Source of the DNA: Pseudoxanthomonas mexicana
GTDB taxonomy: Bacteria > Pseudomonadota > Gammaproteobacteria > Xanthomonadales > Xanthomonadaceae
Assembly: GCF_010093385.1 (NCBI RefSeq)
Contig: NZ_PDWV01000025.1
Location: forward strand, 1 to 53,634
Reading direction: 5' to 3'
Length of the DNA: 53,634 bases
The notes beneath the pieces were generated by a model that did not search any database, was not told the origin of the DNA, and saw nothing but the letters and a program-made list of their open reading frames with translations. Positions 40,796 through 45,508 of this stretch are shown one piece after another. Numbering within the stretch: position 1 is the first letter of the stretch; every line of letters begins with the position of its first letter. A program made the translations under genes and the position numbers.

Positions 40796-41521
40796 ATGAT
40801 GAATCGCAAGACCCTGCTTTTCGTGGCCGTGCTGGCCGCCCTCGGCGCCGGTTCCGCACTGGCCGCCACCCAGGCAGGCGGCGCGCACAAACCCGCGCGC
40901 GCGAGCCTGGACGCGAACAACGATGGCGTTATCGACAAGGCCGAAGCCGCCGCGCATCCGCGCCTGGCCGAACGCTTTGCAGACCTGGACAAAAATGGCG
41001 ACGGCAAGCTCAGCGCCGAGGAACGCCCGCAACGCAAGGGCATGCGCGGTCCCGGCCGCCATGGCGGTGGCGAGCGTGGCGGAATCGCCTTCAGGAAGCT
41101 GGACGCGGATGGCGACGGCAAGGTCAGCCGTGCCGAGGCGGCAGCCGATCCGTCGTTCGCCCAACGCTTCGACACGCTGGATGCCAACAAGGATGGCGCG
41201 ATCGATCGCGTCGACCGCGAACTGCGCGGCAAGCAGCATCGGGACGCGTGGTTTGCCAAGGCCGATGCCGACAAGGACGGCAAGCTGACCCGAGCCGAGA
41301 TCGACCAGGCCCACGCTGCGCGCCGTGCCGAGGCCGGTCAGCGCAGGCAGGCCCGCATGGACGCGCGTTTCGCGGCGGCGGATGCGAACAAGGATGGTCG
41401 CCTGTCGCGCGATGAGGCGAAGGACAGCCGCCTGGCCTCGCGCTTCGACGCGCTCGACGCCAACAAGGACGGTTCCCTGTCCAGGGATGAGCTGGCGGCA
41501 GGCAAGCCTGCCCGCCGCTGA
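40796..41521 (+). CDS. Secreted EF-hand calcium-binding protein with seven loops
   Basis: The protein has 241 residues. A signal peptide (MMNRKTLLFVAVLAALGAGSALA) is followed by seven EF-hand loops: DANNDGVIDKAE, DKNGDGKLSAEE, DADGDGKVSRAE, DANKDGAIDRVD, DADKDGKLTRAE, DANKDGRLSRDE and DANKDGSLSRDE. Most keep the Asp at 1, 3 and 5 and the Glu at 12; the fourth ends in Asp. A basic Gly-rich linker (RKGMRGPGRHGGGERGG) follows the second loop. It probably binds calcium in the periplasm or outside the cell. AGGAG precedes tandem ATGs at 40796 and 40799. The role is unknown. Confidence 0.9.
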   Translation: MMNRKTLLFVAVLAALGAGSALAATQAGGAHKPARASLDANNDGVIDKAEAAAHPRLAERFADLDKNGDGKLSAEERPQRKGMRGPGRHGGGERGGIAFRKLDADGDGKVSRAEAAADPSFAQRFDTLDANKDGAIDRVDRELRGKQHRDAWFAKADADKDGKLTRAEIDQAHAARRAEAGQRRQARMDARFAAADANKDGRLSRDEAKDSRLASRFDALDANKDGSLSRDELAAGKPARR

Positions 41522-41568: not shown

Positions 41569-42714
41569 TCAGAACGCGAGGCGGCCGGACATCACCAACC
41601 CGGCGATCACGCCCGCACTTGCGAGTCCGATCGCGATCACCAGCCCCCACACGCGCCAGAAGCGCTGGCGTTCGATCTGTCGCCGCGTGCCTTCCGGGTC
41701 GCGTTGAAGGTCACGGGCCTGACGCCGCCGCAGGATGCGCGGCAGCCAGATCGCACTGGCCCAGCAGATGCCGCCCATGTAGACCAGGGTCAGTCCCAGG
41801 GGAGGCACCCAGCCGCGCCCCTGCGTCAGTGCCATGCGGCCGACGAGGAAGCCGAGAATCAGCGGGGGGCAGACCGCGCCATAGAACCCCAGGCCCCGCC
41901 GCTCCCGAGCGTCCAGCGGATCCTTCAACGGCTTGCGGATGCCGAACCATACTGCGCCGATGCCGACCAGCGTGCCGAACGCGGCCGCGCCCACCGCGCC
42001 CCCCACCAGTTTGAGCAGGCCCTTGCCGGCCGCTGCGCCGCCGGCCCCCCGGACCACCGCCCCCGCCGACGGTGGCGCCGCAATGGCGATCATGCCCAGG
42101 ACGCCGCCGGCGAATGCCGCCGACGGCGCCGAAGCGCGCGCGAACTCGCCGAAGCGCGCCATCAGTTCTTCGCGCACGTACTGGCGCGCACGCGACAGCC
42201 GTTTGCGCACCGCGGCGTCGGTGATGCCGAGCAGCGAGGCGACCTGCTGCGAGCGCTGGCCTTCGCGGTAGTACAGCAACAGCACCTCGCGGCTGTCTTC
42301 CGGCAGGGCGGCGATGACCTCGCGCGCCGCGGCTTCCTGTTCCGTCTGCAGCAGCGCTTCTGCAGGCGTGGGCGCGGTATCGGCCGCCAGCGTGAGCGCG
42401 ATCTCGGCAGTCTCGCCGGTCATCGGTCGCCGGCGCTGCGCGCGCAGGTGGTCGCGGGCCAGGTTGCGGGTGATCTCCCGCAGCCACGGCAGGAAACTGT
42501 CGGGATTCTTCAGCGTCGCCAGCTGGCGCCAGCCTTTCAGGAAGGCCTCCTGGGCGATGTCTTCGCTGGCGTGCACATCGCGGGTGATCGCCAGGGCGAT
42601 GCCCGTGACGGCGTTCTGGCACAGCGCGACCACGCGGCCGTAGGCGGCCTGGTCGCCGCGCGCGGCGGCCGGCAGTGCATCACGCAGGGAAAGTTCGATC
42701 GTCAGGGTGTCCAT
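41569..42714 (-). CDS. ECF sigma factor fused to a C-terminal membrane domain (copy 2)
   Basis: The protein has 381 residues. Residues 1-185 are an ECF sigma factor: region 2 with ASEDIAQEAFLKGWRQLATL and PWLREITRNLARDHLRAQRRR, region 4 with LPEDSREVLLLYYREGQRSQQVASLLGITDAAVRKRLSRAR. After a short linker, four to six hydrophobic segments follow (SAAFAGGVLGMIAIA, AAAFGTLVGIGAVWFGI, GFYGAVCPPLILGFLVG, LGLTLVYMGGICWASAIWL, VWGLVIAIGLASAGVIAGL). It is paralogous to the gene just upstream, and no separate anti-sigma gene is adjacent. The membrane half may hold the sigma half inactive. GGAG lies 5 nt before the ATG. Confidence 0.9.
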   Translation of the reverse strand: MDTLTIELSLRDALPAAARGDQAAYGRVVALCQNAVTGIALAITRDVHASEDIAQEAFLKGWRQLATLKNPDSFLPWLREITRNLARDHLRAQRRRPMTGETAEIALTLAADTAPTPAEALLQTEQEAAAREVIAALPEDSREVLLLYYREGQRSQQVASLLGITDAAVRKRLSRARQYVREELMARFGEFARASAPSAAFAGGVLGMIAIAAPPSAGAVVRGAGGAAAGKGLLKLVGGAVGAAAFGTLVGIGAVWFGIRKPLKDPLDARERRGLGFYGAVCPPLILGFLVGRMALTQGRGWVPPLGLTLVYMGGICWASAIWLPRILRRRQARDLQRDPEGTRRQIERQRFWRVWGLVIAIGLASAGVIAGLVMSGRLAF

Positions 42715-42792
42715 CGGGTCTCCGCTCGTTCGGTTCGTGCAGGCACGACGACCGACGGCGCCGAGTGTGACCCGGGCGGCGCGATGCGGGAA

Positions 42793-44007
42793 CTAGAAGG
42801 TCAGGCGTCCGCTGCCCACCAGCGCGTACAGGATCGCCGCCAGGGCGAGTACGCTGGTCAGCGCCACCGCCTTGCGGCCGATGATGTACTCGTAGCCCCG
42901 CCGGCGCCGGGCGTTGGCGGGATGGGCCAGGATCGGGTCCATGATGCGGGGCAGGGTGACCAGGTACTGGTAGTTGATCACGCACATCCCCGCCACGGTG
43001 ACGGCGAGGATCGTCCGCCATCCCGGGGCCAGCAGGGTCGCCAGCATCAGGCCGACCATCCAGGCCGCGCCGGTGCTCGCGTTGAGCGCCATGAAGCGGC
43101 GCACCTGCAGGCGTTCCTGCGCGGTCTGGCAGAAGCGGGCCAGATACCACCAGGTGAAGGCGTACCCGATCAGGCCGCCGATCACGCCGCCCACCGCGCC
43201 GCCCAGAGCGGCGGGATGGTGGGTGACGTGTTCGAGGATGACGCCCAGCGAGCCGCCGGCCACCCCGCCGGTAACGCCGCCGGTGGTCAGGCCGCCCGTG
43301 CCCAGCTTGCCCAGCAGACCCGTGCCCAGCACCCCGGAGCCGATGACCGTCGCCGCGCTGGCCGCCGGCATCGCGCCGACCAGTCCACCCAGCACGATCA
43401 TCGTGAAGGCCGCGGTCGGTGCCGTGGAACGCGCGAATTCGCCGAAGCGCTGCAGGAGTTCCTCGCGCACGAGGGCGCGGGCGCGCGAGAGGCGCTTGCG
43501 CACGGCGGCGTCGCTGAGGCCCAGCAGTTCGGCGACCTGCTGCGAACTCTGACCTTCGCGATAGAACAGCAGCAGCGCTTCGCGGCTGTCTTCCGGCAGC
43601 GAGGAAATGATGTCGACCGCCACCGCTTCCTCTTCCGTCTGCAGCAGGCGTTCGGCGGGCGTCGGATCGGGATCGGCCGCCATGCCGATCGCGATCTCGG
43701 CCACTTCGCCCGACATCGGGCGGCCGTGCTGCGCGCGCAGCCAGTCGCGGGCCAGGTTGCGGGTGATCTGGCGCAGCCACGGCAGGAAGCTGGCGGTGTT
43801 CTTCAGCCGGTCCAGCTGCTGCCATGCCTTTAGGAAGGCTTCTTGTGCGATGTCCTCGCTGGCCTGCACATCGCGGGTGATCGCCAGCGCGATGGCGGTG
43901 ACGGTGTTCTGGCAGGCGTGGACGATGCGGCCGTAGGCCTCCTGGCTGCCGCGCGTGGCGGCGGGCAGTTCGGTCTGCAGCATCAGGTCCAGGGCGAGGG
44001 CGTTCAT
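42793..44007 (-). CDS. ECF sigma factor fused to a C-terminal membrane domain (copy 1)
   Basis: The protein has 404 residues. Residues 1-190 are an ECF sigma factor with ASEDIAQEAFLKAWQQLDRL, PWLRQITRNLARDWLRAQHGR and LPEDSREALLLFYREGQSSQQVAELLGLSDAAVRKRLSRAR, almost the same as its downstream neighbour. The rest is a Gly-rich membrane domain (TAAFTMIVLGGLVGAM, AALGGAVGGVIGGLIGYAFTWWYL, WMVGLMLATLLAP, ILAVTVAGMCVINYQYL, ALTSVLALAAILYALVGSGRLTF). The C-terminal ends of the two copies are alike (SGRLAF and SGRLTF). The spacing of 78 bp suggests an operon made by tandem duplication. No strong ribosome site is seen. Confidence 0.9.
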   Translation of the reverse strand: MNALALDLMLQTELPAATRGSQEAYGRIVHACQNTVTAIALAITRDVQASEDIAQEAFLKAWQQLDRLKNTASFLPWLRQITRNLARDWLRAQHGRPMSGEVAEIAIGMAADPDPTPAERLLQTEEEAVAVDIISSLPEDSREALLLFYREGQSSQQVAELLGLSDAAVRKRLSRARALVREELLQRFGEFARSTAPTAAFTMIVLGGLVGAMPAASAATVIGSGVLGTGLLGKLGTGGLTTGGVTGGVAGGSLGVILEHVTHHPAALGGAVGGVIGGLIGYAFTWWYLARFCQTAQERLQVRRFMALNASTGAAWMVGLMLATLLAPGWRTILAVTVAGMCVINYQYLVTLPRIMDPILAHPANARRRRGYEYIIGRKAVALTSVLALAAILYALVGSGRLTF

Positions 44008-44085
44008 GGCGTCAGGATCATCGGGTGGGCTGATGACCCTGACGGGTCGGGACGACGGATGTGACCGGATCTCACGGCCGGGCGG

Positions 44086-44583
44086 TCAGCCGCCGGTGGC
44101 GGGCTGGATGCGGATGCGGTCTTCTTCGGGTGCTTCGTCGGCCGGCGCCGGCTCCGGCTGCGTCGGTGCGGGGATCGGAGCGGCAGGAGGAGGCGCCGGG
44201 CGCCGCATCCACATGATGGCGGCGGCCAGCGCGATAAGCGCCAGCAGCACCAGGCGGATCCGCCAGGCCCAGGAGCGCTGCGGCGCGGCGGGTGTGTCCT
44301 GTGCGCTGCGGAAGGTCAACGTAGGGCCCTGACCCGGGCGCGTGGTCTCCAGCAGGCCGGCCTGCCGCAGCAGTTCGCGCGCGCGCGGCTGGTCTTCGGC
44401 GTGGCGCACCCACACGGCGGGCTGCAGCTGCGCCTTTACCGGCTCGGTATAGCTGAACTGTCCGCTGCGCTTGCTCTGGTAGGAGCGGCCGTTGCTGATA
44501 TGCACGGCAATGCCCGCATCGGTCAGCAGCTTGGCCACGCCCTCGACGGTTTCGATGCGCTGGCTGGAAAAGACTTGCCGCAT
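44086..44583 (-). CDS. DUF2007-like single-pass membrane protein (pathogenicity-like)
   Basis: The protein has 165 residues. The N-terminal MRQVFSSQRIETVEGVAKLL...AGIAVHISNGRSY and VRHAEDQPRARELLRQAGLL resemble the DUF2007 signal-transducer fold. Then comes one helix (IRLVLLALIALAAAIMWM) and a Pro/Ala/Glu tail. Similar xanthomonad proteins carry the loose name pathogenicity-like. It starts 10 bp after tesB and 78 bp before the first membrane-fused ECF gene, so it could be cotranscribed with either. Confidence 0.8.
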   Translation of the reverse strand: MRQVFSSQRIETVEGVAKLLTDAGIAVHISNGRSYQSKRSGQFSYTEPVKAQLQPAVWVRHAEDQPRARELLRQAGLLETTRPGQGPTLTFRSAQDTPAAPQRSWAWRIRLVLLALIALAAAIMWMRRPAPPPAAPIPAPTQPEPAPADEAPEEDRIRIQPATGG

Positions 44584-44593
44584 GCGGGGCGCC

Positions 44594-45508
44594 TCAGTCC
44601 TTCGCCGGCACGGCCGAGGCCGCTTCGGCGTCCGGCACCACGCGGATCAGGCCTTCCTGCGCCGAGCTGGCCACCAGGCGGCCCTGGCGGTCGAAGATCT
44701 GCCCGCGTGCCAGGCCGCGCGAACTGCTCGCGCTGGGGCTGTCGATCGAATACAGCAGCCAGTCGTCCGCACGGAACGGGCGGTGGAACCACAGCGCGTG
44801 GTCCAGCGAGGCCATCTGCACGTTGGGCTGGTAGTAGCTGATGCCGTGCGGGTACGTGGCGGTGCCCAGCAGCTGGAAATCGGAGGCATAGGCGAGCAGG
44901 GCGCGGTGCAGTTCCGGCGAATCGCCGACCGGCTCGCTGAGCCGGAACCAGACCTGCTGGAACGGCGGGCGCTTGGGCGGATTCAGTTCGTCGCGCGGAT
45001 AGACGTGGCGGAACTCGAAGGGGCCGCGCCGCGACAGCCAGCGCTGCACTTTCGGCGGCAGCGTGCCCATGACCTCGGCGGGCACCGCCGGCGCCGGGGC
45101 GATGTCCTCCGGCTGCGGCACTTCCGGCATCGACAGCTGGTGCTCGGCGCCATCCTCTTCGGCCTGGAAGGACGCCGCGCAGAAGAAGATCGCCCGGCCG
45201 TGCTGGATGGCGGTGACCCGGCGCACGGAGAAGCTGCCGCCATCGCGCGTGCGATCCACTTCGTAGACGATCGGCGCTTCGATGTTGCCGGCACGCAGGA
45301 AGTAGGCGTGCAGCGCATGCGCGCGGCGTTCCCCGTTGCTGCCGTCCACCGTCGCCTGTGCGGCCGACAGCGCCTGGCCCAGCACCTGGCCGCCGAACAC
45401 GTACTTGGTGCCGATGTCGCGGCTCTGGCCGCGGAACAGGTTGTCTTCCAGCCGTTCCAGCGACAGCAGTTCGATCAGCTCGGAGACGACGGGTTCGGGT
45501 GCGGGCAC
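44594..45508 (-). CDS. tesB: Acyl-CoA thioesterase II
   Basis: The protein has 304 residues, a double-hotdog thioesterase that hydrolyses acyl-CoA. Family marks are NLFRGQSRDIGTKYVFGGQVLGQAL, HALHAYFLRAGNIEAPIVYEVDRTRDG (both quoted in part here), YASDFQLLGTATYPHG with the catalytic Asp, and SLDHALWFHRPFRADDWLLY. The start is GTG at 45508; no in-frame ATG precedes the conserved N-terminus. A TATAAT box lies 30 bp upstream. Confidence 0.95.
   Translation of the reverse strand: MPAPEPVVSELIELLSLERLEDNLFRGQSRDIGTKYVFGGQVLGQALSAAQATVDGSNGERRAHALHAYFLRAGNIEAPIVYEVDRTRDGGSFSVRRVTAIQHGRAIFFCAASFQAEEDGAEHQLSMPEVPQPEDIAPAPAVPAEVMGTLPPKVQRWLSRRGPFEFRHVYPRDELNPPKRPPFQQVWFRLSEPVGDSPELHRALLAYASDFQLLGTATYPHGISYYQPNVQMASLDHALWFHRPFRADDWLLYSIDSPSASSSRGLARGQIFDRQGRLVASSAQEGLIRVVPDAEAASAVPAKD

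Follow-up and report, generated by a model that had tools for sequence, protein, structure and literature searches.

In most extracytoplasmic function (ECF) systems, the sensor and the sigma factor are separate proteins. Passages in two papers describe the actinobacterial groups ECF48, ECF52 and ECF53 (SCO4117) as carrying a C-terminal transmembrane extension, for which autoregulation has been suggested and proteolytic release proposed (PMC5826349, PMC8999054). The extension there combines a zinc finger with one to two helices, variable in number in ECF52 (PMC8999054), and SCO4117 has an additional carbohydrate-binding domain as well as a putative motif of its own at one promoter (PMC5826349). 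According to further passages of the same literature, IutY of Pseudomonas putida (ECF243) is a sigma factor fused to a membrane-bound anti-sigma factor and released by Prc and RseP, ECF36 members carry a DUF2275 fusion with N-terminal helices, and membrane stress is the proposed signal for the ECF factor of the SigX-CfrX-CmpX system of Pseudomonas aeruginosa (PMC8999054). Here, we analyzed two adjacent genes, A and B, each encoding an ECF sigma factor followed by a predicted multi-pass membrane domain, in a stretch of 53,634 nucleotides from Pseudoxanthomonas mexicana (contig NZ_PDWV01000025.1, positions 1 to 53,634; hereafter, the window). The reading we favor, at a probability of roughly 0.6, is that these two membrane-fused sigma factors use the same promoter, GGTCACA-N15-CGTC, and would switch on themselves together with a small envelope-export regulon.

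Two fused ECF sigma factors

Both open reading frames are real, lying next to each other on the minus strand with lengths of 404 (A) and 381 (B) amino acids and ending in SGRLTF (A) and SGRLAF (B). Their features are:

42793..44007, minus strand: sigma factor A, an ECF sigma factor with C-terminal membrane domain, 404 amino acids (open reading frame, Pfam, TIGR02937, hydropathy, clade A in the protein tree)
43729..43923, minus strand: sigma region 2 of A, residues 29-93 (Pfam PF04542, Sigma70_r2, E 7.1e-15)
43474..43614, minus strand: sigma region 4 of A, residues 132-178 (Pfam PF08281, Sigma70_r4_2, E 2.6e-14)
42814..43416, minus strand: predicted five-helix membrane domain of A, residues 198-398 (hydropathy, AlphaFold helices, loop charges, invariant residues)
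41569..42714, minus strand: sigma factor B, an ECF sigma factor with C-terminal membrane domain, 381 amino acids (open reading frame, Pfam, TIGR02937, hydropathy, clade B in the protein tree)
42427..42621, minus strand: sigma region 2 of B, residues 32-96 (Pfam PF04542, E 2.6e-14)
42181..42327, minus strand: sigma region 4 of B, residues 130-178 (Pfam PF08281, E 2.9e-13)
41587..42120, minus strand: predicted five-helix membrane domain of B, residues 199-376 (hydropathy, AlphaFold helices, loop charges)

A and B alike scored above cut-off for Sigma70_r2 and Sigma70_r4_2 in Pfam and for the TIGR02937 sigma70-ECF model, with regions 2 and 4 occupying the first ~185 residues of both. Together with the hydropathy of the remainder, these matches confirm the preliminary description of this DNA, which had reported two adjacent proteins, each with complete ECF regions 2 and 4 ahead of a membrane half. 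Neither protein had a Pfam match to sigma region 3, and with regions 2 and 4 but no region 3, both have the region makeup of ECF (group 4) sigma factors; likewise, Pfam found no C-terminal SnoaL_2 or TPR extension of the ECF41/ECF42 type in A or B. BLASTP aligned the two proteins over residues 1-221 only, at 69% identity; their second halves did not align by BLASTP, yet share a common layout in the family alignment.

Searching with A at E<=1e-40 returned matches in 145 of 297 Xanthomonadaceae genomes, covering 31 of 54 genera. The closest named proteins and records belong to Pseudoxanthomonas, and Pseudoxanthomonas japonensis DSM 17109 (L302) also has both genes. For 14 orthologue pairs, the ratio of nonsynonymous to synonymous substitution rates (dN/dS) was 0.012-0.137 in the sigma half and 0.049-0.273 in the membrane half, and because these values are low in both, both halves look to be kept by selection. 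Conservation in nearly half of the family genomes and dN/dS below 0.3 in either half thus indicate that the fused architecture is more than chance.

A shared promoter-like site and its candidate regulon

A two-part pattern with a CGTC-like putative -10 element (GTCACA-N15-CGTC) precedes A, B and their relatives. In the window, its extended form, GGTCACA-N15-CGTC, begins 57-58 bases 5' of the start codons of both genes:

44041..44065, minus strand: promoter-like site of A, GTCACATCCGTCGTCCCGACCCGTC (pattern upstream of A, conserved in relatives)
42747..42771, minus strand: promoter-like site of B, GTCACACTCGGCGCCGTCGGTCGTC, between A and B (pattern upstream of B)

Among the 56 genes of the tree set, 46 carried GTCAC-N16-CGTC within 160 bp upstream; the ten misses comprised L059, which has an extra spacer base, five second genes of g14 tandems, L046_1st, L060, L074 and L076. 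We also scanned 80 named loci, nine of which have a second sigma start, excluding one locus that lacked upstream DNA. GTCAC-N16/17-CGTC stood within 150 bp upstream at 78 of the remaining 79, as compared to 0.2% of base-shuffled copies, the 78 loci being not independent since many come from closely related Stenotrophomonas. As the site stands upstream of most members, positive autoregulation of the fused sigma factors is suggested. Since their regions 2 and 4 are similar and each gene is preceded by the same site, A and B would both drive GGTCACA-N15-CGTC promoters. The preliminary description had proposed heterologous regulation for the pair; a better wording is that two different membrane halves sit on similar (69%) sigma halves, with the same promoter-like site before both genes.

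The exact pattern GTCACA-N15-CGTC occurred seven times in the window's genome, and a reversed control pattern six times. Besides the sites of A and B, five others were found, four of which precede genes on the same strand. Two of these candidate targets head ATP-binding cassette (ABC) operons: a secreted alpha/beta hydrolase with a TAP-like C-terminus stands before an ABC ATPase, and a HlyD/MacA-like adaptor before an ABC ATPase plus a MacB-like permease. The other two are a prolyl oligopeptidase (S9 peptidase) and a small secreted protein, with the site 257 bases upstream, which resembles the NCBIfam family XAC0231 below cut-off (a literature search on XAC0231 gave no paper). Extending the search to 21 genomes of the genus yielded 106 exact sites, which is no enrichment over the 112 reversed-control matches in the same genomes. 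Eighty of the 106 lay before sigma genes or the four other orthologous genes, namely sigma genes (28, including one before a B remnant and L186 of G499), the hydrolase (18), the adaptor (17, including G496), the small secreted protein (10) and the S9 peptidase (7). Since the reversed control is equally common, the count proves nothing, and the regulon case rests on position and orthology, with recurrence before the same orthologues as the evidence. In 18 of 19 sigma-carrying genomes of the genus, one or more of the four non-sigma targets carried the site, and none did in the two genomes without the sigma factor (G494, G498). By annotation, with two ABC exporters, two secreted peptidases/hydrolases and one small secreted protein, the target set suggests that the putative regulon responds to toxic peptides or to damage of the envelope.

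To relate site and sigma factor across genera, we scored adaptor orthologues from two hand-picked sets of 31 genomes (24 genera) and 30 genomes (30 genera), searching 200 bp upstream for either an exact site or a relaxed one, defined as a perfect match with a spacer of 14-16 or a single mismatch with a spacer of 15. Exact adaptor sites were present in 11/16 and 5/15 sigma-positive genomes of sets one and two, as compared to 2/14 and 0/15 sigma-negative ones. Pooled, this amounts to 16/31 versus 2/29 (Fisher p 1.4e-4), and the relaxed rule gave 23/31 versus 4/29 (Fisher p 2.2e-6), bearing in mind that the genomes were hand-picked rather than random, and that relatives are not independent although the Fisher tests treat them so. 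In the second set alone, relaxed adaptor sites occurred in 10/15 sigma-positive and 0/15 sigma-negative genomes. For the hydrolase, sigma-positive and sigma-negative genomes compared as 5/15 versus 0/15 (exact) and 10/15 versus 0/15 (relaxed). G002 (no adaptor match at threshold) and G159 (no hydrolase locus) were left out of the respective counts, and the sigma-positive G023, whose adaptor start appears misplaced, was scored as a miss. Sigma-negative status was checked by a profile search, which returned only generic ECF matches, or, for G494, G498, G174 and G230, with protein A; the sigma-negative genomes G024 and G047 are only 83% and 81% complete. In three sigma-negative genomes (G494, G174 and G008), a GTCACACTT... 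site with one to two mismatches stands at the usual place before the adaptor, which looks like decay.

Several points weigh against the favored reading, starting with the non-random sampling and the lack of enrichment given above. Of the 106 genus sites, 26 have no assigned target, and G501 carries the sigma factor with only one-mismatch sites and none of the four targets. Seven sigma-positive genomes (G239, G035, G101, G011, G013, G014 and G022) lack an exact or one-mismatch adaptor site. Conversely, G230, which holds only a sigma remnant, has an exact adaptor site at -153, and G020 carries an exact adaptor site without any fused sigma factor. The latter case would fit GGTCACA-N15-CGTC serving another ECF factor or a repressor, with the fused sigma factors as merely one of its targets, and 11 other sigma-like matches (E<=0.001) in the window's genome offer candidates for such a role. 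We regard this as quite improbable, as the site tracks the presence of the fused sigma family across different genera and its core precedes the sigma gene itself at nearly all named loci.

Some further observations concern the secreted candidate targets. The small secreted protein contains three VVDLPTVTVTP-like repeats, and its site lies about 256-261 bp upstream in ten loci (L095:3006-3030, L131, L140, L147, L155, L163, L166, L178, L182 and L190), the distance in L140 holding with the start set at the MNTK methionine. In L095, an AT-rich stretch separates site and gene, and the long leader might hold something of its own. In L128 (G016) and L181 (G503), an exact site stands a short way before the gene of another predicted secreted protein (MKRRLPLLLSLLLPGFA...), common to both and a possible sixth target. 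A motif match in L096 near NrsF-like and YcgR-like genes (named by sequence reading) is antisense and was not counted.

The predicted membrane domain and possible routes of release

Hydropathy resolved five hydrophobic segments in the second half of B, while segments three and four of A merge in the plot and are separated by the AlphaFold helices. The AlphaFold models are weak, with a mean predicted local distance difference test score of 63.5 (A) and 68.8 (B) and a predicted template modeling score of 0.36 (A) and 0.41 (B); they show long helices where segments two to five lie, and at the first segment two short helices, broken and of low confidence. Averaged over 32 clade A and 23 clade B members (55 in total) with segment borders drawn by hand, predicted loops 2 and 4 hold 3.6 and 6.1 lysines plus arginines in clade A and 5.0 and 9.7 in clade B, as compared to 0.1-1.9 in predicted loops 1 and 3 of both clades. 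This contrast between basic and charge-poor loops fits a cytoplasmic sigma half (N-in) and an outside C-terminus in the five-helix layout predicted for A and B alike. Hydropathy, model helices and loop charges hence agree with the helical second half that the preliminary description had expected.

The cytoplasmic portions of the second half are limited to a linker of ~12 residues and two loops, one of about 14-17 residues and one of about 28. The predicted periplasmic loops are short as well, one with about 5-10 residues and the other, which is Gly-rich in A, with about 16-35, leaving little space for a periplasmic sensor domain. In an alignment of 62 sequences, just six positions beyond the sigma half are invariant: A192, A196, P197, F201, P214 and G255, which belong to the linker and the first helix apart from one glycine. 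P214 falls within the first transmembrane helix (TM1, residues 198-223 in A), which is more conserved than TM3 and TM5.

Pfam recognized no anti-sigma domain, zinc finger included, in A, B or the 23 + 17 second halves scanned, and a hidden anti-sigma domain was accordingly rejected. No Pfam family matched more than 2/23 or 2/17 of these second halves, the best E value, 7e-4, coming from one member only. A solved fold for the membrane half was not found either, the top-ranked Foldseek matches being sigma factors and the sequence matches in the PDB stopping by residue 207. Given the lack of Pfam recognition and the short linker and cytoplasmic loops, the second half seems to leave no room for a classical anti-sigma domain. 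Of the tethering and silencing proposed in the preliminary description, the tether is supported by the fusion to a multi-pass half and the predicted N-in topology, whereas no anti-sigma domain was recognized in that half, so that the proposal is supported in part.

The absence of a recognizable anti-sigma domain or zinc finger raises the question of whether the full-length protein might be active in the membrane, the anchor only positioning the sigma factor and control being exerted by protein amount via autoregulation, as the site upstream of most members would allow. However, the membrane half is long, conserved, under purifying selection and of two distinct old types, which exceeds the needs of a simple anchor, and positive feedback that nothing restrains would be expected to lock on. 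We consider activity of the anchored full-length protein unlikely and favor the anchored form as a putative inactive reserve of sigma factor, the sigma half of which would be freed by a disturbance of the membrane or envelope. No large periplasmic sensor domain is present, and the signal therefore probably acts inside the bilayer or arrives via a partner membrane protein.

Release would most likely occur at the juxtamembrane linker and TM1, by intramembrane cleavage or conformational change. This best guess draws on the concentration of invariant residues in linker and TM1, on the invariant, helix-breaking proline and on a TM1 orientation resembling that of RseP substrates. RseA, a substrate of RseP, has a transmembrane helix running from cytoplasm to periplasm, as predicted here for TM1. 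The main rival to cleavage near TM1 is a conformational switch, in which the membrane domain would be a folded sensor gripping the sigma half via its basic cytoplasmic loops and letting go without proteolysis. The two basic loops, with a mean charge conserved across the 55 members, are compatible with such a grip, and passages in PMC8999054 list the extensions of CorE (copper redox state) and ECF42 (protein interaction) apart from proteolysis-activated ones. On the other hand, these loops are short, and the invariant residues lie in linker and TM1 instead, so that we rate a purely conformational mechanism as somewhat unlikely.

With unlike membrane halves joined to similar sigma halves, A and B would allow two separate inputs to converge on a single output. 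Taken further, the sigma factor itself may be a membrane receptor: polytopic and free of an anti-sigma factor, it would read the bilayer and free its own sigma half; an old duplication would have given two different receptors for one promoter, and in Xanthomonas, Stenotrophomonas, Lysobacter and Pseudoxanthomonas two ABC exporters and two secreted peptidases would be under command of the sigma factor. We put this extended version forward tentatively, as a possibility below even odds. Adding to the counterpoints listed above, the AlphaFold models of A and B offer no reliable contact between sigma half and anchor, and no anti-sigma domain was seen that would account for the presumed inactivity of the anchored form. 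The putative regulon is assigned to A and B together, not gene by gene.

Ancestry, neighborhood and known relatives

The preliminary description had considered a recent duplication, which turned out to be wrong. In a tree of 55 proteins built with a quick method, 32 rows grouped with A and 23 with B, with a Shimodaira-Hasegawa-like approximate likelihood ratio test support of 99 on both branches. Both clades span several genera, and the gene order B-A was seen in L046. The protein tree thereby rules out a recent tandem duplication; as each clade covers several genera, A and B are ancient paralogues, the duplication being old and followed by losses.

These losses bear on whether the pair is decaying redundancy, with B as a dispensable duplicate without a role of its own. 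Only 23 of the 145 family genomes have two matches, no B was found at the loci of G274 and G242, and in G294 (L052:4553-5023) the B match is limited to residues 237-381, the last 145, an internal deletion having taken the sigma half. Yet B-type proteins form a clade of 23 rows, occur as the sole copy found at several loci of other genera and show dN/dS well below 1, which makes dispensability an improbable explanation. The G294 remnant still has its promoter site and start codon. Being the only stand-alone B end, it was classed as a deletion remnant and not as a split gene, and no clear case of the membrane domain as its own gene appeared among the matches of the order search described next.

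Within Xanthomonadaceae, the fusion family sits at one mostly syntenic site. Searching the order with a membrane-domain profile gave matches in 46 of 250 genomes, 37 from the same family and 9 from three other families. The matches lay in open frames of at least 335 amino acids, with three exceptions: G436 (313), G456 (227), which lies at the start of a contig, and G092 (277), whose sigma half is in a different frame from the membrane-domain match. In a class search of 274 genomes, the only match outside the window's family was G649 (E 1.6e-24). This genome holds a distant relative, a sigma fusion of the same architecture (L398:909-2070) that ends in SGRL and lies directly downstream of what reads as a secreted alpha/beta hydrolase-like gene; GTCAC-N15..18-CGTC was absent from that strand of the fetched stretch (L398). 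In L067 (G192) and G092:C325, the membrane half is out of frame and the sigma half open, which may reflect sequencing errors or truncated sigma factors. A 55% identical sigma fusion in L349, from a record titled Bacillus subtilis SK7B5 (contig00043), is most likely contaminating Stenotrophomonas-like DNA.

Around the pair, the window contains the following genes, along with an AmpD-like amidase and an arginyltransferase-like gene (both named from sequence):

44086..44583, minus strand: DUF2007-like gene (DUF2007 E 3.6e-05, just below cut-off; C-terminal hydrophobic stretch)
44594..45508, minus strand: TesB-type acyl-CoA thioesterase, a syntenic marker upstream (Pfam PF02551, E 3e-40)
40799..41521, plus strand: EF-hand-like protein with repeated DANKDG-type loops, convergent with B (named from sequence)

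By Pfam and sequence reading, none of these window neighbors looks like an anti-sigma gene, which bears out the earlier statement that no separate one adjoins the pair, and the same neighbors recur in most of 41 loci. These loci comprise the window and 40 others hand-picked from family matches, the first ones for being tandem. The conserved order is arginyltransferase-like gene, sigma gene (one or two), DUF2007, TesB and AmpD-like gene, with DUF2007 and TesB retained in 38 of the 41 loci and the arginyltransferase-like gene in 37; the EF-hand-like gene adjoins the sigma gene in part of them. In 20 sigma-negative genomes, DUF2007 lies next to TesB in 20/20 and the arginyltransferase-like gene is within reach in 9/20. 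The ~3.9 kb stretch concerned has no A or B match except in G230 (L384:2921-3019), where only A residues 368-400 remain after DUF2007, so that the loss there is probably recent. DUF2007 was rejected as an obligate partner because it stays at all 20 sigma-negative loci; the DUF2007-like gene (44086-44583) is fixed beside TesB with or without the sigma gene.

With sensor and sigma factor in one polypeptide and no recognizable anti-sigma domain, A and B turn silencing into a single-gene question, and the predicted promoter and target list make the hypothesis testable at once. The pair also represents a natural experiment on how two receptors wire to one output. Xanthomonadaceae include plant pathogens and an opportunistic human pathogen, and the candidate targets, exporters and peptidases, point to envelope or peptide stress.

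In the literature searched, we found no trace of the promoter, the regulon or the A/B pair, although the 2021 classification (Casas-Pastor) may already number the family. The fusions described in the covered passages of PMC8999054 and PMC5826349 include no case of five helices without an anti-sigma domain, and those of PMC8103513 and PMC6653060 hold no closer case than ECF48/52/53, ECF36 and IutY. A lead comes from Xanthomonas campestris, where RpoE5/RpoE10 (annotated rfaY) share 69.9-77.8% identity with most homologues listed for other Xanthomonas, the strain B100 entries being 26.9% and 99.8%, in a Table 1 whose legend includes a transmembrane-domain symbol (PMC6085468). They may be relatives of A and B (PMC6085468).

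Compared with the systems introduced at the outset, as far as the cited passages portray them, A and B resemble ECF48/52/53 in being ECF sigma factors with a C-terminal transmembrane extension and suggested autoregulation, but differ in having no detected zinc finger, five predicted helices, no visible periplasmic domain and a different phylum. Like IutY, they are gammaproteobacterial sigma factors fused to a membrane-bound part; the fused anti-sigma factor of IutY belongs to an iron-starvation signalling system, whereas A and B have no anti-sigma Pfam match. With ECF36-DUF2275 they share a sigma factor and a multi-helix membrane part in one protein, although their five predicted helices are C-terminal and do not match DUF2275. 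Membrane stress is the proposed signal in SigX-CfrX-CmpX as well, which consists of separate proteins, whereas A and B are single polypeptides. Together, these comparisons suggest that A and B are a new variant of membrane-fused ECF sigma factors, with five predicted helices and no recognized anti-sigma domain, and that the promoter-like site common to A, B and their relatives, newly found here, defines a putative regulon that is directly testable.

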